A stretch of 30,365 nucleotides of DNA, taken from NCBI GenBank assembly GCA_900095095.1, contig FMBT01000351.1, positions 1-30,365 of the forward strand. The letters run 5' to 3'. Position 1 is the stretch's first letter. Every line of letters begins with the position of its first letter. The position numbers and the translations under genes were made by a program. This stretch comes from Fragilariopsis cylindrus CCMP1102. Lineage: Eukaryota; Bacillariophyta; Bacillariophyceae; Bacillariales; Bacillariaceae. Positions 1,211-30,365 of the stretch are shown here, piece after piece. A model generated the notes under the pieces. It was not told the origin of the DNA and did no database searches. It saw only the letters and a program-made list of their open reading frames with translations.

Positions 1211-1251
<41 letters not shown>

Positions 1252-2595: not shown

Positions 2596-2631
<36 letters not shown>

Positions 2632-3479: not shown

Positions 3480-3566
3480 CTTGCTTTTAGTTTCCTTACG
3501 GGTGTTTGTTTCGTTGTTGTTGTTAATTGTTGTTGTTTTTGATGATTTACCGATCATTTCTTTCAT

Positions 3567-4057
3567 TTCGCCAACCTGCCGTTTTGTTTTGAAAGTAACG
3601 ACTATTTTAAGACACGAGTAACTAGTGAATGAGCACGTCGTAATAAAACACTGGCATTTTACAGTCTAGTAGAGCTTGGTAGCTAGACGCATTTACAGTG
3701 CCAACAGGGAGGAAACAAGTATATGCGGATCTTCAATCTAGACTAGACTAGACTCACTCTATCAGTAGTCTTTTAAAGAGTTATATAAACTAGAATATAA
3801 TTTGTATAGCAATCAATGATACATAAGCATGATTAATAAAAACTCAAAATACCAAAATAATTAATTGATTCGTTCATCTATGTATCAACTAAAACTTGTC
3901 ACAGGATACAGCGACAAAGTCAGGATTGAAGTGATGATAATTTTGGTTGTGGTTGTTATTCTACAAATAATAATAGAAATAAAAAGACCAAAATGATTGT
4001 TGATGATTGATAGATCCCCGTAAACATACACATTTATCTACCCTTTTCTCTTCTTGT
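3567..4057. other. spacer between PEN2 and histone H1
   Basis: AT-rich sequence between the H1 3' end and the PEN2 5' end, both on the minus strand. It should contain the H1 terminator region and the PEN2 promoter. A short ctagacta repeat lies near 3737-3752. No coding frame or RNA gene is seen. Confidence 0.5.
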
Positions 4058-4985: not shown

Positions 4986-5825
4986 TTTGATAGTATTTTT
5001 TTAAATTGAAAAGAATATAAGTAGATTTATTTTGTGTGCGATTTGTATGTATATTAATTGCAATTGTTGTCGGCGGTAGCTTCACTTCACTTTTTTTTCT
5101 TTTCGCGGGGTGAAAGTGACATGTAACAACGAATACGACAAGTCAATCAAAAGTTTGTGGCGCGGGGCATAAGTGGGAAATAAAAGGGATTTGGGGTATG
5201 AAGTTTTTTTATTAACATTTCCCCTTTATTAAAGGTTGATCCCATCCCCATTTTGCACTCTTCGCCGATTCTTCATTGCAAATTTGTTTGTTATGATTAC
5301 TAGTATATATCATGGAACCGGAGCTACTAGAGTCTAGGTCTTTTTACTATATCTATACTTCGTGCTAACATTATCATTTCTTTGCTACTAGTATATCATG
5401 GGGTAGTCCAACTTCTTTTGCTACCATTGGGAGTATAATATCTATAAATATATAGATTAATTATATATATATTTATATATTATAATATCACATAAGTTAG
5501 TAAATCCATGAGTTAAATTAAATTAAATATAACTTAAAAGTCAGTTTTAGCGTGATACAAGTATCTGAAAAGCTTTAGTTTTAATATCTGAATTAATTAT
5601 ATTCGACTAAGTTCAACACTTTTTTTTATATTTAATCTAAGTAGTCAAAACGAGTCGGTTATGTTGTTTCACTTTTTCACTTGTGGGTGAGAAAATCAAA
5701 ATAAACCCAGAAACTGCTAAAAACACCAGTAGAACGTGTAGAAACCTGGGTGAAATCCTGTGCTAAAAATATGTAGTTACGGTACTTAACGCTATTTTCA
5801 AATATTTATTTTTAGAATACGAAAT

Positions 5826-9200: not shown

Positions 9201-10179
9201 GCTCAAAGCAAACCCTCCTAACCAAGCACCGCAACTACCTTTTGACGAAGAACAACCAGCTCATGACCTAGGTGTCGATCCGACTTTTTGGGTTGCTTTA
9301 GAACGTATTCATTCGGCAGCTAAGGCCTTTGATCGCGAACTGTGGGCCGAACCACGGAAGGGCTCGAACCGTGTTTGGGATATTTTGTCATCTGCTGGAG
9401 AAGGGTCAGCAGTTTCTGATAGTATGTCTGCTGCACGAGAATGCCGCGTTGATTTCTTTACAGAACTCGAGAGTCGAGGAGAAGACGCCATTCTTAGAGC
9501 GTTGGACACATTGGGTGCTCATATACAATGGATCTTGGTAACTGGAAGCGAAGCAGGCTTGTCGTCCGGTGCAGTTGGTCTATTTAAGTCGGTTGCCGGT
9601 AATTCGGGAGGGCCATATGCTGTGACTTCGGGGTCTTCTTTGGAAGCACCTAACAGTCCTGCCGTAAAGTCTTTGACGTACTGTCTCCGCGTACAATTTG
9701 TGCACATTCAGGCAGCCTTGACCCCTCAATCTCTATCTGCCTTTTGGTCTGCCTTATCTATGAGACTATACGAAATCCTTGTTACTCGTTTACTTCAAAA
9801 TTGGTATGTGTCTACCGTTGGTGCAGTTATTTTAGCCCGTGATGTGGAAGCCCTACGATCGGTTGCCATGCTTGCTGGAACAAAACATGAGCACTGGGAT
9901 GTATTGCGGGAATTGTTAACCCTTTACATGACTCCTCCAGATGCATTGAAAATCATGTTGGTAGGTCCTGAGGGAGATCCAAATTCTGGAAAGGGTCTCT
10001 TTGGTAGTGCTGGACGAGACCAGTCGTTGGTTTTTATGAGCCGTCGAGTGGATTACCGATATAAGACCACTCAAGGTCAGAAAAAGAGCACATGGGTTAC
10101 ACAAATTTTGAATGAATTGCACGTTCGTGACCCTACAGAGAATTACGTAAATATCGGGTTGTTCACTCAGAAGAGCTAG
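6226..10179 (+). CDS. SEC10: exocyst complex component Sec10 (EXOC5)
   Basis: Subunit of the exocyst, which tethers secretory vesicles to the plasma membrane before fusion. Three exons, 6226-7092, 7369-7474 and 7589-10179, with GTAAGT and GTGCGT donors and TAG acceptors, give about 1,187 residues. Residues 1-130 are disordered and charged, with a Gly10 run. The Sec10 signature near residue 355, RINGRAALQIGNQLE...KRKRCETASMLIRRWW, matches the family G..A..IG..LE....R.R..A..LI block. The C-terminal helical region at about 1020-1130 (FWSALSMRLYEILVTRLLQNW, then an ILARDVEALR segment and a PPDALKIML segment) resembles the Sec10 end, where the family has LL..D...Y and .PENL..L. It is longer than the roughly 700-870 residues usual elsewhere, mostly through the N-terminus and insertions. 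Coding sequence is clean, unlike the right end of the window. Confidence 0.8.
7093..7368 (+). other. Sec10 intron 1
   Basis: 276-bp phase-0 intron, donor gtaagttt, acceptor gaatag. The frame stays open for a while past the donor, but that stretch has non-coding AT-rich composition. Confidence 0.75.
7475..7588 (+). other. Sec10 intron 2
   Basis: 114-bp phase-1 intron, donor gtgcgt, acceptor atatag. Joining gives a Val codon and continues the coiled-coil segment VEDAYQIRLEAHEL. Confidence 0.75.
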
Positions 10180-10747: not shown

Positions 10748-13015
10748 ATGTTACTGTCAAGATCTCTAAAAAAATCTCAGGTGGTTCGTCGATTTACCGC
10801 GTCGTATCATGCAAGCACCGCATTAGCAGCATCGACGACTACGACGAACGAAACACCAACTTTTCCAGCACCAAGATTATTTTCCTATGAACAGATTAAG
10901 AGTAACCTGACTGTGAACGACGGTAAGTTAAGAACAAAATGAACAAAAAAGGATTACGAATAAAAAGAAAAATAACAATCGAAATGAATATGAATAATGA
11001 TGTTTTGGTGCTCAATGGGGTTTCATTACTCATTACTTATATACTGCACTCTTGCATTTGTGTTTCACCTATTCATATTGATATTGGCATTGGCATTGAC
11101 ATTGACATTGACACTGACATCGTCGTGGTTGTTAGCCATCCCTTCAGTTGAAGAAGCGTTTGGCGCTCTTGCGAAAGGAAAGGTTGATGTGCCGATGCCG
11201 ATGCATATTGGTATTGAAGAATCTGAAAATGCTGGTCCTGGTAAGTGATGTTATACATACAACATACAGTGTGCAGTGTCCTACACACATATGATATATA
11301 TGTATGTATATATATATTGAAATTTTTTCACTTACATCTATCTATTCAAAATCAAGGTGACTGTCATATCAAAGGTGGGTATGTATTTGGTGCGAAGACT
11401 TTTACAGTTAAGCTTGCATGTGTCAGTTTCTACAAAAACGTAACGGAACGAGGATTGGTGAGTAAAAATATTGAGAGTTTGGTTATGTAATGATGATAAT
11501 GGTGATGGTGATGGTGATGGTGATGGTGATAGTGATGATACTCATTACCAGTTGATATATTTAAAGCTAGGCCCCAGTACTCATATTGATTCTTACGTTG
11601 CAATAAAATAAAATATCATATATTATATTATAAATATATATATATATATACTACCAAACTAGCCCGCTGGTTCGGGAGTTTTCGTCGTCGTCGACGCCGT
11701 CAGGGGTTGTCCTCTCGGTATTTTTCAAGAGAATCGCTTCAGTAAGTTTACTCAAAGTCTACTCGTAATTTGTAATCCTTACAAGTACTATGATCTTTTC
11801 TCTACAGTGTGCCCGAAACAGATATCTTGTTGATACACGGATTTGAAATATTACTGTCCCAAATACTACTTACTTACTTTTATATTATTTTTCATCCTCA
11901 ACAGTGACCGATCTGAGAACAGGCGCTGCAGGAGCTGTTGCTCTCAAGTACACCACACCCGAAGACAATAACGTTATTGGGTTTATTGGTACAGGTGCCA
12001 TCGCTCGGAATATGTGTCGTGCTGCAGCTGCCGTACGAAAAAACTTTACGGGTATCGCATATGGGCTGGACGTTGAAGGGGCTAAGATTTTCGCAGACGA
12101 GATGTCAGCCGAATTGGGCATTCCCTTTTCAGTTGCTTCGTCAAGTGAAGACCTATGCGGTCAATCGAACGTAATATTTACACAAACAACGGGATCAGAC
12201 TTTGTCTTGAATCTCAATCATCTTAAAAAGGGAACGACTATAATTGCTTCGGGTACGGATCAACCAACAAAGCAAGAGCTTCCCAATGACGTTCTTGCTT
12301 CTGCTGACAAGTATATTTCCGATTTGACCAAACAAACGAGTCGGGTAGGTGAGCTACGTGGAGCTATCGAAGCGAACGCTATGACCACAGACGATGTTTA
12401 TTGTGAGCTAGGGGAACTAGTGAATGGCACAAAAGCGGGAAGAGAAAACGACCACGAACTTATTGTGGTCGACCTGACCGGAACGGGAGGTAAGTTGGAA
12501 GATAAGTAACGGCTGTGCTATTATATTTCATCTTAGTGTTTATCTTGCAATACATCTGATAGGTATAGTATCATTATTATCATCATCGTCGTCGTCTTTA
12601 TTCTGACGCTCGTTGCCCCTTCTCTCTCTCTCTCTCAGCGCAAGACGCCGCCATTGGACAGGTGCGTTGGAAGTAGTGACGACATTGCTATTTTCCCATA
12701 TGATTGTTCATCTTGAAATCTATCTGACACATATAGTATAACCCACCCTCCCCTCTCTCTCTCTCTTTCTCAATCAAAAAACTCAATTAATCAATCAACC
12801 ATGATGGTGTAGGTTGCGTGGTACGTACAGCACTTCGTGACAACAGCGCGTTACGATTACGTTGAAATTTTTCTACTGTCTTATCGTGGAAATTGCAATT
12901 TCTTTCTCGCAACAAGTGTCTGACAATCGTCATCTCTCTCTCTCTCTCTCTCTCTTGCACACTCGACCAACCAAATGCAAACACACACACCAGGGACAAG
13001 TTAAGTCAACTTTAA
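10748..13015 (+). CDS. ornithine cyclodeaminase / mu-crystallin family
   Basis: NAD-dependent enzyme likely converting L-ornithine to L-proline and ammonia; other members are ketimine reductases. My model has exons 10748-10922, 11148-11240, 11357-11457, 11663-11741, 11905-12489, 12639-12661, 12813-12820 and 12994-13015. All are GT-AG and phases agree, giving 361 residues. Seen: KLACVSFYKN (substrate-site Lys region), NRFMTDLRTGAAGAVA, the Rossmann loop GFIGTGAIARNM, SGTDQPTKQEL (the Asp is the proposed catalytic residue of the family), and the C-terminal DLTGTGAQDAAIGQ motif. Residues 1-40 (MLLSRSLKKSQVVRRF, then Ser/Thr/Ala) look like a mitochondrial presequence. Diatoms are known to carry this enzyme alongside a urea cycle, so a link to ornithine use is reasonable. 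The last three exons are the least certain part. Confidence 0.88.
11080..11125. repeat. (ATTGAC)n-like hexamer repeat in intron 1
   Basis: Imperfect hexamer tandem repeat (attggc/attgac/actgac) inside the first intron of the ornithine cyclodeaminase gene. Confidence 0.7.
11498..11540. repeat. (GATGGT)n repeat in intron 3
   Basis: Tandem gatggt units with flanking gatgat variants inside the third intron of the ornithine cyclodeaminase gene. Confidence 0.8.
12620..12638 (+). repeat. TC repeat acting as polypyrimidine tract
   Basis: A TC dinucleotide run ends directly in the CAG acceptor of the exon at 12639. Similar TC runs at 12751-12770 and 12932-12954 lie in the next two introns, upstream of their acceptors. 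Confidence 0.75.
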
Positions 13016-13520: not shown

Positions 13521-13585
13521 TTAGACACCAGGCTCTCCGCAGATACAGCACTCACAGGTCACTGTCTCGCAGTCAACAGAAATCG
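13521..13585 (-). other. Cys-rich C-terminal tail
   Basis: The last residues contain VDCETVTCECCICGEPGV, with five Cys in a short span. A terminal Cys cluster after plant-like LRRs is common in diatom LRR proteins. Confidence 0.65.
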
Positions 13586-16500
13586 AATTTAATGCACCCG
13601 CATACATATTCTCACAAATATCATTCGATACAGATCCCGTTAAGTCATTGTAGTGGAAAGTCGCATCTTTTAATTCCTTCGGGAGGGAGAGTGGGATAGA
13701 TCCAGTAAACATGTTACCATGTAGTAACAGAGTTTTGAGATTAGGGGGATCGCCAATCGAGGAAGGAATGGTACCAGTAAAATCATTATCATCGAGGTGA
13801 ACGTTCTTCAAGTCGAGCGTCCCAAGATTGGCGGGAAGAGTGCCCGAAAACTTATTGTTTTCAGCAAAAAAGACTTGCAAATCAGGCATCTGCTCGGGAA
13901 TATCTTGAGGTAGAGTTCCTTCGAACTTATTGAAACCAGCATCCCAATAAACCATGTCCGGGAAGCGCAATAAGTAAGCAGGCATTTCACCAGAAAATTG
14001 GTTGAAGGCAATCGCAAGCGTATCTAGCTCAGTCAATGACTTAAATTCAGGAGGAAACGTGCCGGTAATCAAGTTATCAGATGCCGTGAACTCGTAAATG
14101 GTAGATACGATGGAGAGCTCGGATGGTAGAGTTCCTTGTAGCCCATTACCATGGATACGAATCATTTCCATTTGTTCGACGCGGTTGCAAGGATCCAAAC
14201 CGATCATGTTGTACCAATCACACTCATGAAGATCGGACAACCACATGTCGTTTTCAAGCCATTCGCCTCCATCCTGCTCACAGAAAAATACAGTCATGGC
14301 ATAACGTTGACGGATGCGCTCACCGTCGAATTCCAGAACATCTTCTCCAGTTCGAAGCCAATCACGAGCTTTACTCTGGCATGATCCCGGAATATCAAAG
14401 AGCTCCGCAGTACCAGGTGGAATGTATGGGCCAAGGCTATCCGAAATCATCTGACAGGCTGGGTCATTGACACATGGTATGAGAGTTTTAGGGTCTGGAA
14501 AAAAAGCATCCGTAGGAGATGGTAAGTTTGGATTTTCCAGAGAGAATTGGGGTGTGTTTGGAGACGGAGCAGGAATTGTTGCAGTAGGACCGATAGCTGC
14601 TCCTGCACCAGCAACGGCTCCAAGTGCCAACATTGACCAAGCTGCTAGAGGTACTCCAGTCACCGTGGGTTGCTTTTCTTCGTCGTCTTCTTCGTATTCA
14701 CTGGTGTCGTCATCAGGAATTGCAGCCAATTCCAAGTCATCATCGCTTTCGGTTGCAGCGGTTACAGATGGTCTGTCGAAAGGTCCCTCAGGACGAGCAC
14801 CGCTCCAGTCATATTGAGGTTCCTCTTTCTTGTACCACGCACTATCAGGCTTGTTGGCCGACCAGTCCATATCAGGCTTGTTGGCCGACCAGTCCATATC
14901 GGGTCCTTGTGGGGTAGATCGTAATTTTGTGGGTCTTCCACCAGCCCAGTCATAGAAAGGTTCTTCCTCAGCTACAGGAGTCAGTTCGAAATCATCATCA
15001 GCTTCAAATGGTGTTGTAACAATTGGCCTGTTGAATGGTTCAGCAGCTTTCTGAGCAGACCAATCAAACGAAGGCGATTGTGAGTAGGCAGAATTCTCCG
15101 GCTCTGCAGGGTTTCGTTGCCATCCATATCCAGGTTCATTTAGATTCTTTGGACGCCCATCTCGGGGTACGGACTTCACATCACCGGGTCTATCGTAATG
15201 ATCATCTTCATCAGGAATTCCAGGAATATTGCTATTGGGGGTTCTTTGCCAAATAGACTCTGGATGATCTTCATTCTTTGGTTTGCCATCTCGCGGAACA
15301 GACTTAACATCACCAGGTCTATCATAAACATCATCTTCATCAGGAATTCCAGGAATATTACTATTGGGGGTTCTTTGCCAAATAGACTCTGGATGATCTT
15401 CATTCTTTGGTTTGCCATCTCGGGGTACGGACTTCACATCACCGGGTCTATCATAAACATCATCTTCATCAGGAATTCCAGGAATATTACTATTGGGGGT
15501 TCTTTGCCAAATAGACTCTGGATGATCTTCATTCTTTGGTTTGCCATCTCGGGGTACGGACTTCACATCACCGGGTCTATCATAAACATCATCTTCATCG
15601 GGAATTCCAGGAATATTACTATTGGGGGTTCTTTGCCAAATAGACTCTGGATGATCTTCATTCTTTGGTTTGCCATCTCGTGGTACGGACTTAACATCAC
15701 CGGGTCTATCATAAACATCATCTTCATCGGGAATTCCAGGAATATTACTATTGGGGGTTCTTTGCCAAATAGACTCTGGATGATCTTCATTCTTTGGTTT
15801 GCCATCTAGGGGTACGGACTTCACATCACCGGGTCTGTCGTAAACATCATCTTCATCCCCGTTAGGTTTATGAGGAGGACTGAACATAGATCGAGCCCAA
15901 TCAAGATCATTTTCTGGTTCTGAGTTAACAGGTTGACGAGTTTTTGGGATCGAATTCAAAGTATTGGGACGATCAAACGGGTTATTCTCGTCCGCTACTC
16001 CAGGAATACGGTCGTTTGGCTCCCTTCTCCAATTAGTAGAATCATTTGGATTTTCTTGGTTGATTGGCGATCTATCACGAGGAATTGAATTGAGGCTTCC
16101 TAATCTTTCCAAAGGAATATCGTCGGTGGGGACACCAGGGATATCATTTGAAGGCTTTCTAGCCCACTGGTATTGTGGCTCTTCCATCATCTTTGGTTTG
16201 CCATCTCGCGGCACGGACTTTACATCACCGGGTCTATTGTAAACATCATCTTCGTCTATTACTCCTGGGATGTTTTGATTAGGCTGCCGAGACCACAATA
16301 ATGAGTCGGGAGAGTCTTTGTTCTTTGCTTCGCTATCTCGCGGTACAGACTTTACATCACCGGGTCTATCAAAAACGTCATCTTCATTGGGAATTCCTGG
16401 GATGTTTTGGTTGGGCTGCCGAGACCATAATGTATCGGGAGAGTCTCTATTCTTCGGTTTACCATCTCGCGGCACAGACTTCACGTCACCGGGTCTATTA

Positions 16501-17671
16501 TAACATCATCTTCGTTGGGAATTCCGGGGATCATTTGATTGGGCTGCCGAGACCATAATGTGTTTGGAGAGTCTTCATTCTTTGGTCTACCATCTCGCGG
16601 CACAGACTTTACATCGCCGGGTCTATCAAAGAGGACATCATCATCAGTAGCCCCAGGAATCTTTTCGTTAGGATTGCGGGTCCAAACATCCGCGTTTTCT
16701 GACCCAGTCTCATCAGGAGCCCTTGAACGAGGGATTGAATTTAAACTATCTGGCTTTTGAAATGGAACATTCTCATCATCAGTGCCAACGATATCTGCTC
16801 CATTATCCCGAAGCCAAGTGTAAGCCGCCTCGATTTCTTGAGCTCGATCTTCAGAACTTTGTCCAGGCTTTGTTGGCAATAGCTGGTCAATAGTCTTGAA
16901 TGGTTCAAGTGATGGGCTATCAGCGCCATCTTTTTGACGAACCCATGTCAAAGCGTCGTCTAAATCTTTCGCTCTATCTTCTGGCGAACGCTTACTGGGA
17001 AGTTTTTCCTGGTTCAACTTCTTGAAGCTCGTGGGTTCGTCTTCGTCGGTCAATTTCATATCGTTCTCACGCATCCAACAAAGAACTCCCTCTACATCTG
17101 ATGCACGATCCTCGGGAGTCTCGTTTTGCTTCTTCGGCAACAATTGGTCAACTAATCTGAGTTCATCGGTTGGTCCCTTGTCGTCATTCTTAGGTTTACC
17201 CTGTCTCATCCAGTTCAAAGTACGATCAAGATCTTGTAGTCTTTCTTGAGGAGATCGAGGCATCAAAGAAGTTTCTGGGTGCCCTGCCATCGGTTCTAAA
17301 CTAGAAAGTTCCTCAGGAGAAACGTTGGCATTGTTTGAGCGAACCCAGTCAAGTGCACCCTCGATTTCCCGCGCTCTTTCTTCAGGCTTGCGTAAGGGTC
17401 TCTTCGGAAGAAGTTGGTCGAGGACTTCGAATTCTCCAGTTTTGTCATCAGTGACGTCCTTCCCTTGACGAATCCATGTTAGCACATCGTTAACGTCGTT
17501 CGCGCGATCTTCCGGTGTGCGTCTAGTAGCAGGAATAGATGCAAGTTTCGCAAATGGAGGAGTTTCGTCGTCCTCACTTTCATTTGGCGACGCATTACGT
17601 GTCCAATCAAGTGCCCTTTCAATGTCAATAGCCTTCTCCTCCGGAGTCTGATTCTGATTGGACGGAAACAA
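13521..17671 (-). CDS. last coding exon of giant gene: modules, membrane segment, LRRs
   Basis: Begins after the acceptor TTAATATAG at 17672 with TTG TTT CCG. It continues the helical modules (about nine W-x-R units, 16.8-17.7 kb), passes into Pro-rich 43-residue modules (15.1-16.75 kb), then DWSANKP repeats, an acidic EYEEDDEE stretch, the membrane segment and the LRR ectodomain, ending at TAA 13521-13523. A one-base loss near 16,497 splits it into a 396-codon frame (16481-17671) and a 987-codon frame (13521-16484). Both frames carry the same module family on either side of the break, so they are one protein, not two genes. Confidence 0.85.
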
Positions 17672-20600
17672 CTATATTAATAAGTGGATGTATTTCATTT
17701 ACAGAAAATGAAAGCGAAGAAAAGATTAAATTAGAATTGGTAAAACATGTAATAACTCATGATAACTAGAAAATAATCATAATATAAAAGGGGGAGGGAC
17801 ACACACACACACACACAGATATATAAACGCATATCATATCGATCTTACCTGGCTAGTTGTCTTAAACTCTCCAGTCGGGTCTAGCGAATCAGGTGTACCT
17901 TCACGCAACCACGTGAGTATATCATCTAGATCGTCTTGACGTTGTTCAGGGCTTCTTCTTGAAACAGGAATTGAGCTCACTTTATCAAAACGAGGAGATG
18001 AAGCATCATCGACAGGTTTCATACCACTGTTGCGACACCAATCTAAAAAGCCTTCGATATCACGAGCTCTTTCCTCTGGTGACTCTTGCTTCGGTAAAGG
18101 AAAGATTTGATCACATTTTCGAAAATCTCCATCCGGAGTGTCATCAACATCATTCTTGCCATTGCGTATCCACGTAGAGATGTTATCAATGTCATTTTTC
18201 CGATCTTCTGGACTACGCTTCGACATATTTACGAAGGGGTGTAGGGTAAATTGTAAAGGTGTGACATTATCGGCTACCGGAACACCGTTTGAACGCATCC
18301 AGTTCAATACACCTTCAACATTGCTTGCACGGTCTTCAGGACTTTGGTCAGTCTTTGGAGGCAGCATTTGATCAATTGCAGCAAATTCATTGGTGGGAGT
18401 GTCAGGATTACTAGGACGACCTTCTCTAATCCAATTAGTGATATCATCAACATCTTTTTGCCTGTCTTCTGGAGATCTTTTGTTCACTGGAATTGATGGT
18501 AGCTTGTCAAACTTGGTAGGCTTTTCATCATCTGGTGAAACAGGAGGAACATTGTTGGATCTCATCCAGTTCAATACACCTTCAACATCGCTTGCACGGT
18601 CTTCAGGACTTTGGTCAATCTTTGGAGGCAGCATTTGATCAATTGCAGCAAATTCATTGGTGGGAGTGTCAGGATTACTAGGACAACCTTCTCTGATCCA
18701 CTCAGTGATATCATCAACATCCTGTTGCCTGTCTTCTGGAGATCTTTTGTTCACTGGAATTGATGGTAGCTTGTCAAACTTGGTAGGCTTTTCATCATCT
18801 GGTGAAACAGGAGGAACATTGTTGGATCTCATCCAGTTCAATACACCTTCAACATCGCTTGCACGGTCTTCAGGACTTTGGTCAATCTTTGGAGGCAGCA
18901 TTTGATCAATTGCAGCAAATTCATTGGTGGGAGTGTCAATATTACTAGGACGACCTTCTCTAATCCACTCAGTGATATCATCAACATCCTGTTGCCTGTC
19001 TTCTGGAGATCTTTTGTTCACTGGAATTGATGGTAGCTTGTCAAACTTGGTAGGCTTTTCATCATCTGGTGAAACAGGAGGAACATTGTTGGATCTCATC
19101 CAGTTCAATACACCTTCAACATCGCTTGCACGGTCTTCAGGACTTTGGTCAATCTTTGGAGGCAGCATTTGATCAATTGCAGCAAATTCATTGGTGGGAG
19201 TGTCAGGATTACTAGGACGACCTTCTCTAATCCAATTAGTGATATCATTAACATCTTTTTGCCTGTCTTCTGGAGATCTTTTGTTCACTGGAATTGATGG
19301 TAGCTTGTCAAACTTGGTAGGCTTTTCATCATCTGGTGAAACAGGAGGAACATTGTTGGATCTCATCCAGTTCAATACACCTTCAACATTGCTTGCACGG
19401 TCTTCAGGACTTTGGTCAATCTTTGGAGGCAGCATTTGATCAATTGCAGCAAATTCATTGGTGGGAGTGTCAATATTACTAGGACGACCTTCTCTAATCC
19501 ACTCAGTGATATCATCAACATCCTGTTGCCTGTCTTCTGGAGATCTTTTGTTCACTGGAATTGATGGTAGCTTGTCAAACTTGGTAGGCTTTTCATCATC
19601 TGGTGAAACAGGAGGAACATTGTTGGATCTCATCCAGTTCAATACACCTTCAACATCGCTTGCACGGTCTTCAGGACTTTGGTCAATCTTTGGAGGCAGC
19701 ATTTGATCAATTGCAGCAAATTCATTGGTGGGAGTGTCAGGATTACTAGGACAACCTTCTCTGATCCACTCAGTGATATCATCAACATCTTTTTGCCTGT
19801 CTTCTGGAGATCTTTTGTTCACTGGAATTGATGGTAGCTTGTCAAACTTGGTAGGCTTTTGAACTGTAACAGGTTCAACGCCCATGCTTCTGCACCAATC
19901 GATTACAGATTCAATATCTTTTGCACGGTCTTCAGGACTTTGTTTCTTTTTTGGAGGAAGCATTTTATCGATTGCATTAAAGTTTCCTTCGGTGTCATTG
20001 ATGTCCGGTTTCCCTTGTCTGATCCAACTTAAAACAGCATCTGCCTCTCTCTTCCTATCATTTGGGGTTCTCTTCGAAACCCCGATTTGACTTGCTTTGA
20101 TCAACGCTGGAGTATCGATGTCAATTTTTCCAATAGTTGGCGAAATGTTCCTCATCCAAGAAAGAGCATCGTCTATAGTTTTTGCTCTTTCCAATGGTGT
20201 TTCTCCATTTTTCATTGGCAAAATGTCGTCAATTATCTTAAATTTGCCATCAGTTGTATCATCGATAGGATCCTTACTGTTTCTCATCCATAGCATAATA
20301 TTGTCCATTTCCTCTGTTTGATCACCAAAACTCTTACGGTTGACTGGTATTGAGGGTAGCTTAGAGAAATCGGATGGACGATCGTCTTCATTGTAGAGAG
20401 ACGAAGATGGATTGCGCATCCATGTAAGAGCTTTTTCGATGTCGAAAGCCCTTTCTTGACGGGTTTGGCCTTTTTTCTCAGGAAGGATCTGGTTAATTTT
20501 AGCAAAATTTCCTGTCGGATCAAGCGCGACTTTCTGCCCGTTTCGTAACCAGGCAAGGACATCATCAACTTCAATATTATCCCCCTCGCTTGTTTTGGGG

Positions 20601-23600
20601 TTCACTGCGATAGATGGGTTGTTATCGAAACGAATAGAGTCATGAACGTGGTCCAGATTCAAATCGTTCACTCGGCACCAGTTTAGTGACGACTCGATAT
20701 CACGGGCTCTAGCTTCGGGTGCTTGTCCCTTCTTCACTGGAAGCATGCTGTCAATCTTGGTGAATCCACCAGTGGGATCTTCAGAAAGAAGCTGTCCTTG
20801 TCTAATCCATTCAAGCACATTAGCCGCTTCTTTTTGTCTGTCTTCTGGCGACTTGTGAGAGACTGGAATGGAAGAAAGAGTGCTGAATGCAGGTAAAGAA
20901 CCATCATCATCTAAAAGCTTCACTCCTGTATTCCTGCAATAGTCGAAAATAGATTCAATATCGCGGGCTCTATCTTCGGGTGATTCAGCCTTCTTCGATG
21001 GAAGCATGTTGTCAATCTTGGTGAATTCACCAGTGGGATCTTCAGAAACAGGTCGGCCTAATCTAATCCATTCGAGCACATTTTCGACATCAATCTGTCT
21101 ATCTTCGGGCGACTGATGTGTAATCGGGATAGAAGAAAGAGCGCTGAATGCAGGTAAAGAACCATCATCATCTATAAGGTTCATTCCTTTATTTCTGCAA
21201 TAGTCAAAAACAGATTCAATATCTCGGGCTCTATCTTCAGGTAATTGCCCCTTCTTCACAGGAAGCATGTTGTTAATCTTAGCGAATTCACCGGTAGGAT
21301 CTTCAGAAACAGGTTGTCCTTCTCTAATCCATCCTAGAATATTCTCAGCATCTCTCTTTCTTTCTTTGGGTGACTTGTGCGAAACTGGAATGGAAGAAAG
21401 GGTGCTGAATGTAGGCACAGAGCCATCGCCCGAAATCTGCACTCCTTTATTCCTACAGAAATCAAAAACAGATTCAATATCTCGGGCTCTATCTTCAGGT
21501 GATTGTCCATTCTTCACTGGAAGCCTGTTGGCAATCTTAGCAAATTCACCGGTAGGATCTTCGGAAACAGGTTGTCCCTGTCTAATCCATGCAAGAACGT
21601 TTCCGATATCATTCTGTCTTTCTTCGGGTGACTTGTGCGAAAATGGGATAGAAGAAATAGTGCTGAATGCAGGCACAGAGCCATCATCTAGAAGCTTCAC
21701 TCCTGTATTCCTGCAATAGTCAAAAACAGATTCAATATCTCGGGCTCTATCTTCATGCGATTGTCCCTTCTTCACTGGAAGCTGGTCGTCAATCTTTTTG
21801 AACTCATCAGCTGAATCAGCATCAGCTGGTTTACCACAGCGAATCCATTCAAGCACATTAGCAGCTTCTTTTTGTCTATCTTCTGGCGACTTATGAGAAA
21901 CTGGGATAGAAGAAAGAGTGCTGAATGCAGGCACAGAGCCATCATCGGAAAGCTTCGCTCCTTTATTTCGGCAGTAATCAAAAACGGATTCAATATCTCG
22001 GGCTCTATCTTCAGGTGATTGTCCCTTCTTCACTGGAAGCTGGTCATCAATCTTTTTGAACTCATCAGCTGAATCAACATCAGCTGGTTTACCACAGCGA
22101 ATCCATTCAAGCACATTAGCCGCATCCCTCTTTCTTTCTTCAGGCGACTTGTGAGAGATCGGGATGGAAGAAAGAGTGCTGAATGTAGGCACAGAGCTAT
22201 CATCGTCTGACGGCTTCACTACTGGATTTCTGCAGTAATCTAATGCATTCTCGATACTTATCGCCCTATCTCTTAGATCTTGACCATTCTTTGTCGGCAA
22301 GAGAGAGTCTACTTTACGAAACAGACCAAGAGGATCTTCAGAATGCTTTTTCCCATCGCGTAACCACGTAATGACATTCAGTAAATCTTTTGACCGCTCT
22401 TCAGGAGTGCGAGTGGCTATTGGTATGGAGTCTACCGTGCTGAAATCAGACATTATTTCGTTTGCATCGTGAAGGGGTAGTATTCCTTTGTTTCTAACCC
22501 AATCGATAGCCTTCTCTATCTTCTGCGCACGTTCTCTTGGTTTCTCTCCTTTAACATGCGGAAGCATCATTTCAATCTTCGTAAATTCACCGGTTGGATC
22601 TTCAGAAACAGGCCGTCCTTGTCGGATCCAGTTGAGGACATTTTCAAGATCACGTTGACGTTCTTGTGCGCCTCGAACATGTACAGGAACGGAAGCGAGC
22701 TTATCCAAAGATGGTAAAGGAGTTTCTTCCTCGTCCATGGTCAGTCCTGCCATTCTTAGCCAATCAAGCGTACTTTCGATGTCACTAGCACGTTCTTCGT
22801 CTGTCTGTTTATTCTTCTTTGGAAGCATCTGATCAATTCTTGAAAAATCATTTGAAGGATTACCAATATTATTAGATCTGTTGCGCAAAAAGTCAAGAAT
22901 ATTATCTTGTTCTCTCTTCCTCTCTTCAGGGCTTCGTACTGAAAAAGGAACGGAATTCATCTCAATAGAACCGGGAATGGAATCAATATCAGCAGGTTTG
23001 ACACCGAGAGAGCGACACCAATCGAGAGTACGCTCGATCTCTCTAGCTCTATTCTTAGACGACATTTTCTTCTTTTCTGGTAGGAGATGATCAAGCTTTC
23101 TAAAGACACCTGACGGATCAAGTGCAGAAACTTTGTCCCCCCTTATCCATGACAAAACGTCATTGACATCCTTCTTTCTTTCCTCTGGACTCCGGCGTGA
23201 GATTGGAAGGTTTCCAGTTTTACTCAGTGCTGGGAGTATATCGTCGTCTGTAGAAATGTTATGGTTTCTGGTGTAATCTAATACACCTTCGATATCACGA
23301 GCACGATCCTCTAAAGTTTGTCCAGACTTGTCTGGTAGAAGATTGTTCAATCTCGTGAAATCATCATTTGGATCATTGGTATTATAATCGTCAACTCCGT
23401 TTGTACGTAACCAATTTAACACATTAGTTAGGTCTTTTGATCGTTCCTCGGGTGTGCGTTGAGACATGGGTATCGAATTTACCATTTTGAAGTCAGGAAC
23501 ATCGTCATTAGATAGTACATCATGGTTTGTGTTGCGCCACCAGTCCATCGCGCTTTCAATCTCGCGCGCACGATCATCGATGCTTTGACCCCGCTTTACA

Positions 23601-26600
23601 GGTAACATACCATCCAATTTGCTAAATTCACCTTCAGGGTCAGTAGATTCATCATTCTGTCCCTTACAACGAAGCCAGTTTAAGATATCACTAGCATCTT
23701 TTGATCTTTGTTCGATTGAGCGGCTAGAGACTGGAATAGTAGAAGAGATGGTATCAAACGCTATATCGTGCATGTCTATTGTCGCATTAGCATCTTTTTG
23801 ACGAATCCAATCCAACGATGCCTCAATCTCACGTGCACGATCATCGATGCATTGACCCTGCTTTACAGATAACATATCATCCAACCTTCTAAATTCGCCA
23901 CTTGAATCAAACGCAAAATCATCCTTTCCCTTGTTACGGAGCCAATTTGAAGTATCGGAAAGATCTTTGGAACGTTGTTCTGGACTTCTACCTAGAACAG
24001 GAACGGAGCCAATTTTATTGAAGTTTTCAATGGCATCTTCATCGTGGATCGAAATATTGTTCATCCTACACCAATCAAGAGCGCCCACGATCTCTCTTGC
24101 GCGATCATTTGGGCTCTGACCTTGCTTTATAGGTAGCATAGCATCCAATTTGCGGAATTCACCATTTGCGTCGTACTTCTTCCCTTTCCCTTTATTTCTC
24201 AACCAGTTGAGGGCGTTCTCGAGGTCGATGACATTCTGTTCTGGGCTACTGTTGACTATTTCCATCGTTGGAACCTTATCAAATTCTGGTACGGCGTCAG
24301 CACCATGAGAGCTAACGTCCTTTTGTCTCATCCAGTCTAACGCTCCCTCAATTTCACTAGCACGATCTTCTGAAGACTGTCCTCGTTTCTTGGGTAGCAT
24401 TCCATCTAGTCTTCGGAACTCTCCATTAGGGTCATAGATACCGTCATCATCACCCTTGTTTCGAAGCCAATTCAAGGCATCAGATAAGTCTTTAGATCTC
24501 TGTTCAGGGCTTCTTTTACCTGCATCAAAGGTTGGGGCGCTTTCCGAACCAAGTAGATAATCAGCACCACCAAGACATTTGTTTCGAATCCAATCAGAAG
24601 ACATTTCAATTTCTTTAGCTCTATCCTCTAGGCTTTGTGCTCCATTTTTTGGAAGCAAAGAGTCAAGTTTCTCGAATTCTCCGGTTGAGTCGATTAGATT
24701 ATCATTCTCTCCTTTATTGCGAAGCCAGTTCAGGGCATCCTGTTGGTTCTTGATTCTCTGTTCAGGTGTGCGTTTGGAGATTGGAACAGAACCAAGATTA
24801 GAGAGCTTTTCAATGACACCATCATCTGTTAAAGAAACGCCACTATTGCGAATGTAATCCAAAGCACCCTCAATAGCACGGGCCCTATCTTTCAACTGCT
24901 GAAATTTCTTCTTTGGTAGGAGCTTATCAAGCTTTCTGAAATCGCCGGTAGGGTCATACTTCCTGTCTTTCTTTCCCTTACGTTTAAGCCAGTTCAGTAC
25001 ACCTTCTACATCTTCACTTCTTTGTTCAGGAGAACTGTACGCGGAAAAAACAGATTCAATATTTTCAAATGATGGCATCTCTTCATCTCCGTCAGCATTT
25101 TCAGAGCTTCTGATCCAATCTAGACAAGCCTCAATCTGTCGTGCGCGATCATCGACTGTTTGATCATGCTTCTTGGGTAGCACACCATCTAGTCTTTGGA
25201 ACTCTCCATTAGGGTCATAGATATCGTCATCATCGCCCTTGTTTCGAAGCCAATTCATGGTGTCTTTCAAATCTGTACGTCTTTGCTCGGGTGTTCGGGC
25301 CGAGACTGGAAAGAATCCTAGATCACTATATTTGTCAACGATGTCATCGTCGTCAGGAGATACACCGTTTGAACGTAAAAAGTCCAACGCTCCTTAATAT
25401 CAAATGCAAAAAACGAAACATAAGTCAGGAATATGAGAACATAAGGATAGGACTTATTGAGATGTAACAATCTCCAATCGTTATCTATAGTACTGGTTAA
25501 ATAAGACAGAGACAGTACATATATTTCGTATATCTTACCTTCAATTTCACGGGCTCTTTCTTCTGGGGTTTGACCACGCTTCTTCGGTAGCAGTTTGTCT
25601 AACTTGCGAAAGTCCCCAGTTGGATCATATTTCTTACTTTTGCCTTTACCCTTCCTTATCCATTTAATAGAATTTTCAAGATCCTTAAGCCGCTGTTCTG
25701 GGCTACTTTTAGCAATTGAAGTTGACGGGAACTGGATGAAACTACTTGGAAAATCATAGTCACCATCGTCACCACCGGCATTGCCTTGCTCTCGAATCCA
25801 ATCCAAGGCACCCTCGATTGCCTTTGCACGATCTTCAAGAGTCTGGTCACGTTTCATTGGAAGAAAACCATTCAATTTAGAGAAGTCTCCTGTAAGATCA
25901 AGATTTTCAACAGTTTTGCCCTTGTTCCGAAGCCAGTTCAATGCGTCAGACATGTCTTTGGAACGCTGTTCGGGGGATCGCTTGGGGATTTCGGTCATAG
26001 TTGGAACATTCATTGATTTTGAGTCATAGGTTTCATCCGTTGGATTCAACCCCCTTTGACGCATCCATTCCAAGGCATTAGCAAGCGCTTGGGCTCTTTC
26101 CTCAAGCGGTTGACCTTTTTGGACGGGTAACGATGATTGAAGCTTTTGGAAGACACCCGATGGATCCAAAGTATCGTCATTGGAACTGTTACGGAGAAAG
26201 TTCAGTATATTGTTGACATCATTCGGAGAGGATGAGCCAGAGGAACGGCGACCAATTGCTGCAGATCCAACTTCGTCGAATCGAGGGATAGATTCGTCGT
26301 TGAGACTATCGATATCTATGCCATTAGATCTCAACCAATTTAGAGAATTTTCCATTTCTTTAGCGCGTTCCGACTCAGACATACCAGCATTGGTTGCGGG
26401 GAGCAATCTTTGGATCTTATCGAAGACAGAATCATCAGTGCCTCCGTGCTCTCCTTGCCGTAACCAGCCTAGAGCATCTACCAAGTCCTTCTCTCTGTCT
26501 TCCGGAGATCTATGAACTATCGACTCAGTACCAATCTTGCCAAAAGATGACGAGCCGTCGTCGTCACCAGAAACATTAACTCCATTAGTACGCAACCAAG

Positions 26601-29600
26601 CAAGTGCGTTAACCATATCGGTTGCTCTATCTTGCTCTGTCTGACCTTCACGTAATGGAAGTAAACCATCCAGCTTAGAAAACGCGTTACCACCCTTGTT
26701 GTCCTTGTCGTCATCGGTGCTGCGAATCCAGCTGAGCGCATTTTTCGTGTCACGGTCTTTCTCATACACAGATCTCAATCCCATGGGAATTACTCCAAGT
26801 TTGTTGAAGGATGAGACATCCGTATCATCATCATCAAGATCAAGACCCTTGGAGCGTAACCAGTTCAATGCATCTTCCATCTCTTTCGCTCTATCACCAA
26901 CAGATTGCCCCTCTTTCTTCGGCAATAGTATATCCATTTTTTGGAATTTTTTAGACTCGGCGTTGTCGACATCCGAATTTCGCAACCAGTTCAAGGCATC
27001 TTGCGTTTCATTCATTCGTTCTTCTCCAGACTTCGGCGTAAAATCGCCAACGGCAAACTTTTGAAAATCGAGGTCAGACCCATCTCCATCTCCATCTTTA
27101 TTTCGCAGCCAGCTAAGCGCCTTGGCCATCGCATCCGCCTGTTCCTGTTCTTTTGTCTTCGGTACACTTCCAAAATAGTCTGAAGGATCATCCAAATCAA
27201 GATTGTTTAGGTCTTTATCACGGAGCCAATCAAGTGCACGTGTCATTTCTTTTGCTGTTCCTTCAGAATTGACTCGTTCAGAGTCAATCGAGCCATATCG
27301 GCTTAAATGACTAGAGAAATCTGGTGCATCGTCTTCGAATGGAACGTCGTTTGAGCGCATCCAATCTAGTGCCCTACTCATTTGTTCAGCTTTTTGCTGT
27401 TCCTTTGATCGAGGTTGAGAGCCGAAGCTACCAATTGCTGAAAACTTGTTCTCGTCATCTTTGCTGAGCGATTCGGGGTGCTTTTCTCGTAGCCAATTTA
27501 GTGCATCATCGAGCCCTTTACTTTCCTGACCATCAGCGCCAACAGGAGAGAACGTACCAATGCCCGCAGACTTAAATTCTTCCCCATCAACGGGAGCTTC
27601 GACGACACCATCACGCAACCAGTCAAGAGCCTTCGCCATATCAGCAGCCGTCTTTTGCTCCTTGTTCTTTTTCGCGATGCTAGCAAATGACAAATCGTTA
27701 TCGGTTTGATCTTCTTCGTTACCTGTTGGAACGGTCTCTTTCTCTTGCTTGCGAAGCCAATCCAACGCACTTGGAAGCGAGCCACCACCACCCGTATCGA
27801 TATTCTTGAAAGAAGCAACGGAACCAACACCAAGGGATATGTCGTCATCAATGTCATCAGCAGTATCATTAGATTTTAGCCAATTGAGTGCATTTGCCAT
27901 TTCTGCAGCCTTCTTCTGTTCTGCAGTCACCGGTCCTGTTGCATCAGCTGCCTTCAGAGCCTGTCGCTTTTTGAGCCAATCCAATGCTCCTCCAAATCCC
28001 GACTCTTGGATGGAATCTTTAGCTCCTGACTTCTCAATGACGTCATCAACCTTTCTAAAGCTATCGACGGTTTCATCGTCAACATCGGTCTTTGAGCGTA
28101 GCCAGTTTCAGCGCGCTTTCCATAGAAGTTACCCCACCGGAATCGCCGCTCTTAGGCATAAGAGAGTCAATCTTCTTAAAGGATGCTAGAGACATGGCAA
28201 CCGAAATGTCGTCATCAAAGTCGAGCTCTGCATCGTTACTGTTAATCCAATCCAAGGCGCTAGCCATTTCACTGGCTCGCTTTTGTTCTTCTGTAAAAAC
28301 CCCGGATAATTGTGGAGCTGCATCAGATTCAGGTTTGCTCGTTCCAAGAATATTCAACGACTCGCTGATCTCACCAACATTTTGACTTCTGAACCAATCA
28401 AGATTGGCATCGGTGCCTGGTTCCATATCAGGATGGGCAAGCTCATTCCATCTCTGCGCAAAATTCTCAAGCTTACCATCTTATCTTCTTCTACAGGACT
28501 TGAATCTTCGTCCAACTCAAATCATTTCGCCTCCACCAGTCCTAAAGCATCTTCTATCTCTCGTGCAACAACCTTTGGCTTGCGATTCTTTTTTCCCCAG
28601 GCATGGAATAGTTCACGTATGTCTTCAACCTTTTTGTCTTCACACTATCAAGATCAAAATTCTTGTTCTTCTTCCGCATCCAACGAAAGAGGTCAGCGAT
28701 TTCCTTCACAACTGCACTTTGTGCTTACGAGGCATGTTTAGTCTTGCGCCAGAGCTGAGCTAGACGCTTGGCCTTTTCAAACACTTCAGCATCTTCGAGA
28801 TCTTGGTCTATCTCAAGGCTATTTCCTTCACGTTCCCACCAACCAACACCATCGTTCAAATCTTTGGCCGTTTGGTTGACTTTACTAGCAGGAAGGTGAT
28901 CGAACCCAGTTTTTAGACATACCCAGGTCACTGTGCCAATCCGCAGTGTATCAGTAACCATTTGTGTCGCATCATCGTAGGAACTGTATTCAAACTCTCT
29001 TCAATGACATCATATTCCTTGCCAGTCTTCTTCCACCAATTCATTGCATTAATCATTTCTTTGACAGTCTGTTCGCCTCGACCTCTGAAATGTTACTAGC
29101 GTTCGTTCGTCGCCATTCCAGCATGATTTCACGAAGTTTCAACAGGACTTCACGTTGCGAAGATTTGACATCAAGTGATCCAACATCAAATACTTTCCCA
29201 TGACTGCGCCACAAATCAATAACATCTTGAATTTCCTTGCATGATTTCTTAGTTCTTGTCCACGTCATGGTGTTTTCGGCACCACGTGGATCCCACTTCT
29301 CCATCATTATCTTTACCTTTTCTGCCGAATATACGTCCGCAGGACGCTTAAAATCAGGAATATCGTCTTCTTCACAATTAGAACGCCACAGATCTAGTGC
29401 ACCTTCAATCTCCTTAGCGATAGCTTCCCCTTCTACGGGTACGGAAATCTCACTGGATTCGGCCCCAATTGCGCGCCAATCGATCATGGCTTGTTGTAAT
29501 TTCTTGAACTTGGCACCTTCCTCACCTTCGAATTGGTCAAATATCTCTGGCTTGTAGTGATTACGTCTAAAATAGATGAGAGAATCAGCAATCTCTTTGA

Positions 29601-30365
29601 GCTGTTCTGGTGCAGGGTCGACCTTACAACCCCACAATGTCAAGAGTCCTTGAGCTTTTTTAAACTTGGCCACATCTGCTCCGGACGCCGTCTTGAAGTC
29701 CTGGATTTGATTACCATCGGTTTGGTACCACGACATGATATTATTCATTTCCAACGCCGAGCGTTGCATTTCGTTCGCATCTAGGGAATCACGGTGAAGG
29801 TGTAACAAGGCATGTTTGGTTTTTTTCATTGTATCCGCAACATGGGGTTCGAGTTGATCAAACGGCGTGTCTTTGTGCTTGGCCCAAAGCTTCAATGCCG
29901 CCTTCATTTGCTTGTTACGAGAATCAAATTTATCACCTTCCTTCAGCCCAAACAAGGCAAGCATATCCTTTGCCTTGCGAAACATCTCGTCGTCTTCATT
30001 GGTGGCTGTCAATGGATCAAACGTATTGGCATTGAGTCGCCACCATCGTAGAGCCTCCTCCATTTCGGATGCTGAATTATCTTGGCTGAATTTCCAATCG
30101 AGAACTAAGGCCTTGGTACGGTTAATGGCTGCCGAATTATAACGCGGATCTTTCGGATCGAAGTATCCATTCAAACCATACCCAAACACCCCTGGAGGTC
30201 CTTCGTACGGCGTTCTGCCTCTTCAAGGTTATTGCGTGGATCGAACGATTCCCACTTTTGTTTAGGCGAATCCTTTAGTTCCCATCGACCAAATAGTGCA
30301 TTGACCTTCAAAAAAGTGGACTGATCATGCTCAAATTCTGCTAAGTTCTCTCCGTAGGTTGTGTA
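13521..30365 (-). CDS. giant repeat protein with membrane segment and LRR ectodomain (5' end outside window)
   Basis: One minus-strand gene with coding blocks 25539-30365 (truncated by the window), 17849-25392 and 13521-17671, about 5,500 codons. N to C: Trp-rich helical modules; about 44-residue modules with SPExR...LxWxR, often paired as 89-residue units; 43-residue Pro-rich modules with RPGDVKSVPRDG and IPGIPDED; an acidic stretch; one membrane segment; a diatom-type LRR ectodomain with a Cys-rich tail. Two GT-AG introns fall inside repeats, and splicing restores the repeat pattern across each junction, which is strong evidence for a single gene. No enzymatic motif is visible in the part seen. 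The reading frame is interrupted at about 16.5 kb, 28.1 kb and repeatedly from 28.4 to 30.2 kb. Function unknown; surface receptor or adhesion/scaffold roles are guesses. Confidence 0.8.
13598..14180 (-). other. leucine-rich repeat domain, about seven repeats
   Basis: Repeats of about 24 residues with the plant-type pattern LxxLxLxxNxFxGxLPxxL, for example GLQGTLPSEL, LITGTFPPEF, QFSGEMPAYL, KFEGTLPQDI, KFSGTLPANL, DFTGTIPSSI and MFTGSIPLSL. Such domains bind ligands, usually outside the cell. Confidence 0.9.
14181..14450 (-). other. diatom-type LRR N-terminal cap
   Basis: Contains the series SKARDWLRTGED...IRQRYAMTVFF...GGEWLENDMWLS...HECDWYNM...DPCN. The order QRYA, GG.W, WLS and CDW matches the cap that precedes LRRs in many diatom and other stramenopile proteins. 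Two Cys pairs (around PCVNDPAC and HECDW/DPCN) may form disulfides, which fits an extracytoplasmic position. Confidence 0.75.
14589..14654 (-). other. predicted single membrane segment
   Basis: A 22-residue uncharged Ala/Gly/Leu-rich stretch (VPLAAWSMLALGAVAGAGAA and two more residues) between an acidic N-side flank (EYEEDDEE) and a neutral Pro/Thr/Ser-rich C-side flank. It contains small-xxx-small spacing (G...G, A...A), a pattern found in helix-helix packing. Hydrophobicity is moderate, so membrane insertion is likely but not certain. Confidence 0.7.
14848..14901 (-). repeat. two 27-bp direct repeats (DMDWSANKP)
   Basis: Two adjacent identical 27-bp units, each coding for nine residues (DMDWSANKP). 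They lie in the acidic juxtamembrane region. Confidence 0.85.
15186..15830 (-). repeat. five near-identical 129-bp tandem repeats (43 residues)
   Basis: The + strand mark gggtctat (one copy ggtctat) recurs at 15186, 15315, 15444, 15573, 15702 and 15831, exactly 129 bp apart. Each unit codes for RPGDVKSVPRDGKPKNEDHP followed by ESIWQRTPNSNIPGIPDED. Copies differ at only a few bases (for example tcatcagg versus tcatcggg, and one copy coding VPLDGK instead of VPRDGK). More diverged copies of the same module continue on both sides, to about 15,100 and 16,750. Confidence 0.95.
15831..16760 (-). repeat. diverged 43-residue Pro-rich modules
   Basis: Further copies of the RPGDVKSVPRDG / W-x-R / PNxxIPG module with more divergence, including LNSIPRDRSP, LNSIPKTRQP and LNSIPRSRAP variants. 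They form a bridge between the 129-bp array and the helical modules upstream in the protein. Confidence 0.8.
16484..16507 (-). other. one-base frameshift in giant gene
   Basis: In the sister module copies the + strand reads gggtctattgtaaacatcat (16220s) or gggtctatcaaaaacgtcat (16350s). Here it reads gggtctattataacatcat, one base shorter. The encoded frame changes from EDDV...to a stop after DPVT, while the next frame resumes at DVKSVPRDG. Confidence 0.85.
17672..17848 (-). other. giant gene intron (3'-most)
   Basis: 177-bp phase-0 GT-AG intron, donor GTAAGATCG after TTSQ, acceptor TTAATATAG before LFPSNQ. Joining yields GEFKTTSQ-LFPSNQNQTPEEK, which matches the GEFxKIDxMLPxKxxQSPEDR pattern of neighbouring modules. 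It contains a CA repeat near 17800-17816. Confidence 0.85.
17849..25392 (-). CDS. central coding exon of giant gene: helical W-x-R modules
   Basis: A 7.5-kb uninterrupted coding exon of about 2,515 residues. It is made almost wholly of alternating modules of about 44 residues: type A, QSPEDRARDIExxxDxxR, and type B, SIPVxxRSPEDRxKDxxNVLxWIRxGxP followed by DPTGEFxKID. A plus B gives an 89-residue, 267-bp unit. Predicted helices carry a conserved Trp/Tyr and Arg; linkers are rich in Asp, Pro and Gly. No Cys clusters, signal peptide or catalytic motif are seen. The long open frame with selected spacing shows it is under coding constraint. The structural class is inferred from the pattern only. 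Confidence 0.88.
18283..19860 (-). repeat. six near-identical 267-bp tandem repeats (89 residues)
   Basis: The + strand mark tttgatcaattgcagcaaat recurs at 18369, 18636, 18903, 19170, 19437 and 19704, exactly 267 bp apart. Each unit encodes EWIREGxPSN, TPTNEFAAIDQMLPPK, QSPEDRASDVEGVLNWMRSN and a KFDKLPSIPVNKR linker. Copies are almost identical in DNA and differ by a small set of shared variants. Confidence 0.95.
20860..22250 (-). repeat. second, more diverged 267-270-bp repeat block
   Basis: Consecutive 89-90-residue units with DRARDIESVFDYCRN(K/T)G, then (S/V)PxFS(T/A)LSSIP(V/I)(S/T)H(K/Q)SPE, then EWIR or AWIR. They are clearly related to the 18.3-19.9 kb units but diverged in sequence, and carry a Cys in the first helix (DYCRN) instead of Met. 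Confidence 0.85.
25393..25538 (-). other. giant gene intron (second)
   Basis: 146-bp phase-1 GT-AG intron, donor GTAAGATATACG after REIE, acceptor GATATTAAG. Joining gives REIE-GALDFLRSNG, exactly the A-type module pattern. Confidence 0.85.
25539..28106 (-). CDS. giant gene exon: ALDWLR modules (intact part)
   Basis: About 855 codons of modules with the core (E/D)(M/A)xxALxWLRxxx, separated by acidic linkers. Toward the C-terminal side they gain the GQxxxDRAxxME and RSPEDREKD signatures of the central exon; toward the N-terminal side they are simpler, as EQxKAxxMxxALDWLR. This gradient suggests the module family changed along the gene. The frame is lost at about 28,105-28,107, where the + strand reads gccagtttca instead of gccagttca, one base too many, before the WLRSK of that module. 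Confidence 0.85.
28079..28426 (-). CDS. giant gene fragment upstream of the 28.1-kb frameshift
   Basis: Frame of 115 codons (MEPGTDANLDWFRSQNVGE to TSMESALKL) carrying two more modules, NLDWFRSQ and ASALDWINSND. Ignoring the extra base at about 28,106, it joins the next exon part as MESALNWLRSK. The ATG at 28426 could be a start if everything upstream is dead, but the modules clearly continue past it. Confidence 0.7.
   Translation of the reverse strand: MEPGTDANLDWFRSQNVGEISESLNILGTSKPESDAAPQLSGVFTEEQKRASEMASALDWINSNDAELDFDDDISVAMSLASFKKIDSLMPKSGDSGGVTSMESALKLATLKDRC
28427..30365 (-). pseudogene. frame-disrupted 5' part of giant gene
   Basis: Recognisable protein modules continue to the window edge but in changing frames: FRWMRKKN, HAWGKKNRKP and WWRRND (28.5-28.7 kb), GVGWWEREGN (28725-28961), NAMNWWKKTGKEYD (about 29.0 kb), and a 378-codon frame at 29053-30189 with EALRWWRLN, LKLWAKHK, MSWYQTDGN, LDLWRSNCEED and VIDLWRSHG. 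Disruptions: at least three indels between 28.46 and 28.65 kb, an in-frame TAA at 28725-28727, and single shifts near 28,980, 29,070 and 30,195. The last ~170 bp again code in frame (QKWESFDPRNNLEEAERR). No splice sites of plausible spacing explain them. Either real decay or local assembly error; typed as pseudogene only for the broken part. Confidence 0.6.

Follow-up and report, generated by a model that had tools for sequence, protein, structure and literature searches.

The minus strand of a 30,365-nucleotide stretch of Fragilariopsis cylindrus DNA (the window) carries most of a three-exon gene for a protein of 5,825 residues. In this protein a very long array of short modules precedes a single hydrophobic segment and a C-terminal leucine-rich repeat (LRR) domain. 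We regard it as an evenly balanced proposition that this is a type II transmembrane LRR protein whose giant cytosolic array would act as a multivalent tether or scaffold. Diatom transmembrane LRR proteins are a known kind; new is the giant, probably cytosolic, beads-on-a-string array of an unnamed module. The gene is laid out as follows.

25539..30365, minus strand: portion of exon 1 in the window; the ATG lies about 316 codons further on, in contig C314
25393..25538, minus strand: intron 1, GT-AG, frame preserved
17849..25392, minus strand: exon 2, open for 2,514 codons, modules only
17672..17848, minus strand: intron 2, GT-AG, frame preserved
13521..17671, minus strand: exon 3 including the stop codon, with the final helical modules, the proline-rich modules, the hydrophobic segment and the LRR; an open 1383-codon frame in contig C424

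The window is the complete contig C57 of a 67.9-Mb assembly of 818 contigs, and the gene extends about 316 codons beyond base 30365. The 16,845 bases inside the window, minus the two introns, hold about 5,500 codons, in agreement with the original prediction of at least that number. For the full protein, three contigs of this genome were combined, each exon being taken where it is open: exon 1 from C314, exon 2 from the window and exon 3 from C424. Every exon has at least one contig in which it is open, but no single contig carries all three open. The start ATG lies in C314, 12 bases past an in-frame stop; the 1992 codons of C314:46506-52481 form a single open frame, which takes in part of intron 1.

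C314 overlaps the window at 25356-30364 (99.7%), contig C60 matches it at 21843-30364 (99.5%), and C424 begins at window position 21842, where C60 stops. All four contigs end within the gene. The simplest reading of these overlaps is that C314+C57 and C60+C424 represent two alleles, each broken within the repeat. The array, the hydrophobic segment and the LRR had been predicted to form one gene. All three lie in minus-strand frames of 13521-30365 and the modules are joined to the LRR in both C57 and C424, which supports this claim, but the window copy is not a single open frame. It contains the two introns, a single-base frame break around 16.5 kb that is absent from C424 and, in the exon-1 part shared with C314, 13 gaps (12 single-base, one three-base) along with one synonymous codon. 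C60 differs from C314 in exon 1 by six one-base gaps and no substitutions, and from the window in exon 2 by 13 gaps of 1-3 bases and one non-synonymous codon. Between C424 and the window we found one one-base gap, two synonymous codons and one non-synonymous codon in exon 3. In exon 2, C424 has two more units than the window, and the two copies also differ by a pair of one-base gaps, by four synonymous codons and by nine non-synonymous ones. Because their positions differ between contigs, the frame breaks look like assembly errors; real damage to one allele is also possible.

Silicon transporters (27 matches, best 757 bits) and light-harvesting proteins (104 matches) in the assembly identify the host as a diatom. 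The RuBisCO large subunit had no match in the assembly, so this seems to be a photosynthetic diatom with a plastid genome apparently absent from the assembly. A VWD profile gave no match in this genome and likewise none in the control genomes, and its absence is therefore not evidence. At lower coordinates in the window, Pfam matches mark four neighbouring frames.

316-1977, plus strand: class 3 lipase
3201-3665, minus strand: Pen-2-like frame
7645-10176, plus strand: exocyst Sec10-like
11904-12506, plus strand: ornithine cyclodeaminase/mu-crystallin

The end of the lipase-like frame carries a 137-base direct tandem duplication (1912-2193; 2.1 copies, 95% matches). A Lys/Ala/Pro-rich frame at 4061-4531 (minus strand), with no Pfam match at E 0.01, resembles a linker-histone tail.

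From the N to the C terminus, the protein consists of a Gly/Arg-rich region, about 4,600 residues of Trp-anchored modules (divergent ones first, then 86 helical modules at residues 1025-4728), 13 proline-rich modules (4772-5293), the hydrophobic segment and the Cys-rich LRR domain. The parts within the window are listed here.

16795..28260, minus strand: regular array in which 43 A and 43 B helical modules alternate (86 in all), forming units of about 89 residues (protein ~1010-4735), interrupted by the two introns
18296..19860, minus strand: 5.9 nearly identical 267-base (89-residue) units, two fewer than in C424
15108..16801, minus strand: 13 proline-rich modules of 43 residues (protein 4733-5297), with W-x-R and S[IV]P retained
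14589..14654, minus strand: the sole clear hydrophobic segment, a putative signal anchor (protein 5449-5470)
13524..14474, minus strand: C-terminal Cys-rich LRR domain (protein 5509-5825; Pfam LRR_1, 36.8 bits against a cut-off of 20.6)

An HMM search of the spliced protein returned 94 module hits, 91 with a domain E below 0.01. Of the 94, 93 fall within the portion spanned by the window; beyond them, 13 more W-x-R modules continue with unchanged period. This agrees with the 90 to 100 modules estimated in the original prediction. Across 99 consecutive [WYF]xR anchors the spacing averaged 43.55 residues (SD 1.70, range 32-48); the anchor residue was W in 88, Y in 7 and F in 4, and R stood at +2 in 95. 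The module of about 44 residues in the original prediction makes up half of a unit of 89 residues. Since the anchors had themselves been picked by HMM and pattern, a plain motif count provides the less biased control. Residues 1001-5300 contain 111 [WYF]xR motifs, compared with a mean of 16.9 and a maximum of 27 over 500 shuffles. For 100 of the 111, a partner follows 41-46 residues downstream (shuffled: 0.4, maximum 3). The same region holds 41 S[IV]P motifs against a shuffled mean of 3.0 (maximum 9; 300 shuffles).

S[IV]P is present in 22 of the 43 A modules, in one of the 43 B modules and in all 13 proline-rich modules. At fixed places of the A-module logo (n = 43), F occurs 26, S 26, I 23 and P 25 times. 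The proline-rich modules share their period, WxR and S[IV]P with the helical modules, and for this reason are likely to be true relatives of them; their profile match was 10.7% to A, 0.5% to B and 19.8% to the early modules. These early modules are the divergent, Trp-rich ones of residues 111-1000. A profile built from 11 of them, picked by hand, gave a match of 94.9% to the B module, over the last helix, and of 70.4% to the A module. Residues 1-110, which include the Gly/Arg-rich stretch, show no evident signal peptide when judged by eye. Residues 1-50 (C314 46518-46667) are RGG-like, a composition that we take to resemble RNA-binding or condensate-forming proteins. Elsewhere in the genome, lone B-type modules were found at C124:16883-17020 (77% identical) and C788:14938-15075 (74%); they sit in short frames, with a stop in one copy, as stray fragments of the array.

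The original prediction knew of no named domain family with the module pattern, and we detected no credible Pfam, PDB-sequence or PDB-fold relative of the modules. Pfam was scanned with six pieces covering the whole protein and with 27 stretches. Spectrin (PF00435) reached at best 18.7 bits, below its cut-off of 29.9, and appeared in 3 of the 27 stretches (best E 0.032). Nebulin was absent at E up to 1 from the six pieces and from the best 25 of 44 families in the 27 stretches, and no titin-type match was listed in the Pfam scan of the protein. NIL (PF09383) scored 24.6 bits against a cut-off of 24 in one piece, with a best stretch of 21 residues and no stretch singly significant, and appeared in 2 of the 27 stretches. 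Weak matches to UBA_7 (4 of 27 stretches, best 3.6e-05) and UBA_DHX29 (7 of 27, best 1.2e-04) were below cut-off in the six-piece scan, where they cover the C-terminal part of the profile. Single-protein scans of bacterial and archaeal contigs (14 pattern stretches) and of viral contigs (one) yielded no relatives; as these sets cover bacteria, archaea and viruses, they are uninformative on relatives in diatoms. A search of open-licence PubMed Central by title and passage found no report of the protein.

The fold of the modules was predicted with AlphaFold from two stretches of the array, using alignments that consist of the protein's own repeats; the models do not fix the placement of one unit relative to the next. 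Model 1 (269 residues, a 27-row alignment of the array against itself) had a mean pLDDT of 74.0 and a pTM of 0.37. Its low-confidence stretches (1-21, 100-110 and 188-198) each precede an A helix. As a control, model 2 was computed from a different stretch in the opposite register (28 rows). It had a mean pLDDT of 64.4, a pTM of 0.34 and no residue at 90 or above, and contained the same helices as model 1: A, a short helix and B. Low confidence was confined to the cut end (1-5) and to four stretches between B and A: 57-65, 135-153, 217-228 and 232-240. Short helices of low confidence lie within linkers at 6-10 and 101-106 in model 1 and at 137-146 in model 2. With moderate confidence, the models suggest a folding unit of about 89 residues composed of helix A, a short helix and helix B, with a linker of low confidence after it, like beads on a string. 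A continuous alpha-solenoid was also considered and was dropped because confidence between units was low in both models. The long modular rod of the original prediction likewise gave way to beads when these few units were modeled. Measured at fixed offsets from the anchors, the B-to-A linker has 22-27 residues in all 42 cases, and many linkers carry a conserved stretch around F..L.SIPV. This stretch, conserved yet predicted with low confidence, may be a binding motif.

Selection was assessed from 378 unit pairs, 83 of which had a usable dS; 82 of these fall in identity bins. The median dN/dS was 0.38 at 30-45% identity (44 pairs) and 0.32 at 45-60% (17 pairs), with high dS in both bins, 0.30 at 60-80% (14 pairs) and 1.02, meaning no constraint, at 80-95% (7 pairs). 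Older units thus look constrained and recent units do not. A unit signature occurs eight times in C424 and six times in the window, and the alignment places two extra 267-base units in C424. Judged by these sequences, unit number is not the same in the two putative alleles. The array can be read as a record of tandem expansion in which alleles differ by whole 89-residue units.

The predicted diatom-type LRR was supported by the Pfam LRR_1 match and by phmmer against PDB, in which the domain matched the plant LRR receptor GSO1 at 3.5e-72; FLS2 and BRI1 were matched too. The LRR part has at least 112 matches in the genome, a count that includes alleles and comes from scoring 100 of 226 candidates. 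Twenty-eight of these loci were inspected for a hydrophobic segment and for cysteine layout, and 21 were not judgeable. Six (L022, L025, L026, L027, L038 and L044) have a strong hydrophobic segment (2.57-3.54) with basic residues before it. It is preceded by at least 113-390 residues, with 0-3 cysteines before and 9-19 after in the stretch examined; lengths and cysteine counts are partial for L025, L026, L027 and L038, which are cut by locus ends, and L025 and L026 may be alleles. A further locus (L045) has the segment with two cysteines on either side, that is, without contrast. Whole open frames of the six relatives comprise 525-1,399 codons (introns not counted). Long LRR frames of 1,398-1,666 codons (L025, L026, L040, L043) are clustered on both C255 and C90 and may form a tandem cluster. 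LRR genes are reported to be prominent among Seminavis tandem duplicates (PMC7335047) and enriched in Nitzschia putrida (PMC9054022).

The one membrane segment of the original prediction corresponds to a single hydrophobic peak: hydropathy over 19 residues is greatest at 5449-5470 (1.76), and the next value is 0.99. On a summed insertion scale, the segment reaches a marginal +1.58, the best value elsewhere before it is 12.25, and five relatives range from -1.96 to -6.21. Cysteines number 25 in the 5,445 residues before the segment and 12 in the 317 residues of the LRR part. The N-terminal flank of the segment is acidic, not basic, so the positive-inside rule lends the orientation no support. 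A type II topology is most likely, with the array in the cytosol and the LRR outside or in a secretory lumen, given the single hydrophobic segment, the lack of an evident signal peptide, the cysteine distribution and the like layout of the six LRR relatives. The array, being N-terminal to the segment and sparse in cysteines, is most likely across the membrane from the LRR. The surface rod with an LRR head that had been proposed finds no support in a protein in which the LRR is C-terminal and a cysteine-poor array precedes the segment.

If the hydrophobic segment acts as a signal anchor, the LRR would face outward from the cell or into the lumen of a secretory compartment (the silica deposition vesicle, for instance), leaving the array in the cytosol. 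There, about 43 three-helix beads with near-constant linkers and 13 S[IV]P/WxR modules would present the same site dozens of times. By binding a filament or a partner that is itself clustered, this repeated site would couple a single outer LRR contact to a long inner cytoplasmic anchor. Our first guess for the partner is the cytoskeleton. At its most specific, and improbable as it stands, the array would be a membrane-bound ruler along raphe actin bundles, nebulin-like in working and not in sequence, with the LRR gripping the outer adhesive strand as the unidentified transmembrane link of the adhesion-motility complex. According to one paper on a gliding diatom, myosin would push on extracellular material by way of a transmembrane protein that has yet to be identified (PMC10547550); two others treat the membrane-spanning link as hypothesized or still to be shown (PMC11962607, PMC11420354).

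Alternatively, the protein could be a receptor whose LRR binds a ligand, such as a pheromone or another cue, and whose array clusters signaling proteins instead of filaments. The repeated low-confidence linker stretch would suit a docking motif, and MRP2 and MRM2 of Pseudo-nitzschia multistriata, which combine a transmembrane region with an LRR without a recognizable kinase, are proposed as pheromone receptors or adhesion molecules (PMC6261938). However, the size of the protein and a strict period over about 4,270 residues seem to us beyond what clustering needs, and a near-constant linker length suggests that spacing matters; we consider such a receptor possible but doubtful. Rather unlikely is an organizer of the silica deposition vesicle or cell wall, with the LRR in the lumen or wall and the array tying that membrane, while the valve forms, to the cortical cytoskeleton. 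The genome is that of a diatom and a type II protein could place its LRR in any secretory lumen equally well, but a search of open-licence PubMed Central brought up no such protein by title.

Two readings depart further from the tether. The array could be secreted as an extracellular adhesive or rod, the hydrophobic segment being no topology switch. The weakness of that segment would fit, as would the very large modular proteins described for diatom trails (CaTrailin4, Ca5609; PMC11420354), but the lack of an evident signal peptide, the N-terminal position of the array and its few cysteines make this very improbable. Finally, the array and the LRR could come from separate genes, or the whole could be a decaying pseudogene, as might be suspected because C60, C424 and the window copy carry frame breaks and all four contigs end inside the gene. 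Against this artefact, which we hold to be scarcely credible, each exon is fully open in at least one contig, the breaks are mostly single bases at places differing by contig, the module-LRR junction occurs in two contigs, and moderately diverged units show purifying selection.

The membrane-anchored tether with a cytosolic array remains our preferred reading. Diatom LRR proteins are numerous, and by our reading the roles of their inner parts are largely unexplained; a strictly periodic giant inner array would be a handle on what such proteins hold inside the cell. A giant tether would also be a concrete candidate kind for the missing membrane link in gliding.

Nebulin, spectrin and titin are giant filament-binding or spring proteins. 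The present protein resembles them in its many short modules, repeated with a strict period over a great length, and may share multi-site ligand binding. It differs in being probably membrane-anchored with an LRR, in having no nebulin or titin-type match among the Pfam families listed, and in a Spectrin score below cut-off. Adhesive trail proteins of diatoms are secreted and carry a GDPH domain (PMC7335047). CaTrailin4 (~900 kDa) and Ca5609 (>1 MDa), compared by their description in PMC11420354, are likewise very large, modular and from diatoms; unlike these trail components, our protein lacks an evident signal peptide and carries its hydrophobic segment close to the C terminus. GSO1, FLS2 and BRI1 have an LRR of the same sequence type (E as low as 3.5e-72), but here the LRR follows the membrane segment, and no protein kinase was found among Pfam families at E up to 1 in the six pieces. 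With MRP2, MRM2 and the LRR relatives in its own genome, the protein shares a hydrophobic segment, a plant-receptor-type LRR and the lack of a detected kinase, and with the six relatives also a Cys-poor N-terminal side and a Cys-rich LRR side. It is set apart from these six by about 5,450 residues, nearly all of them modular, before a much weaker segment.
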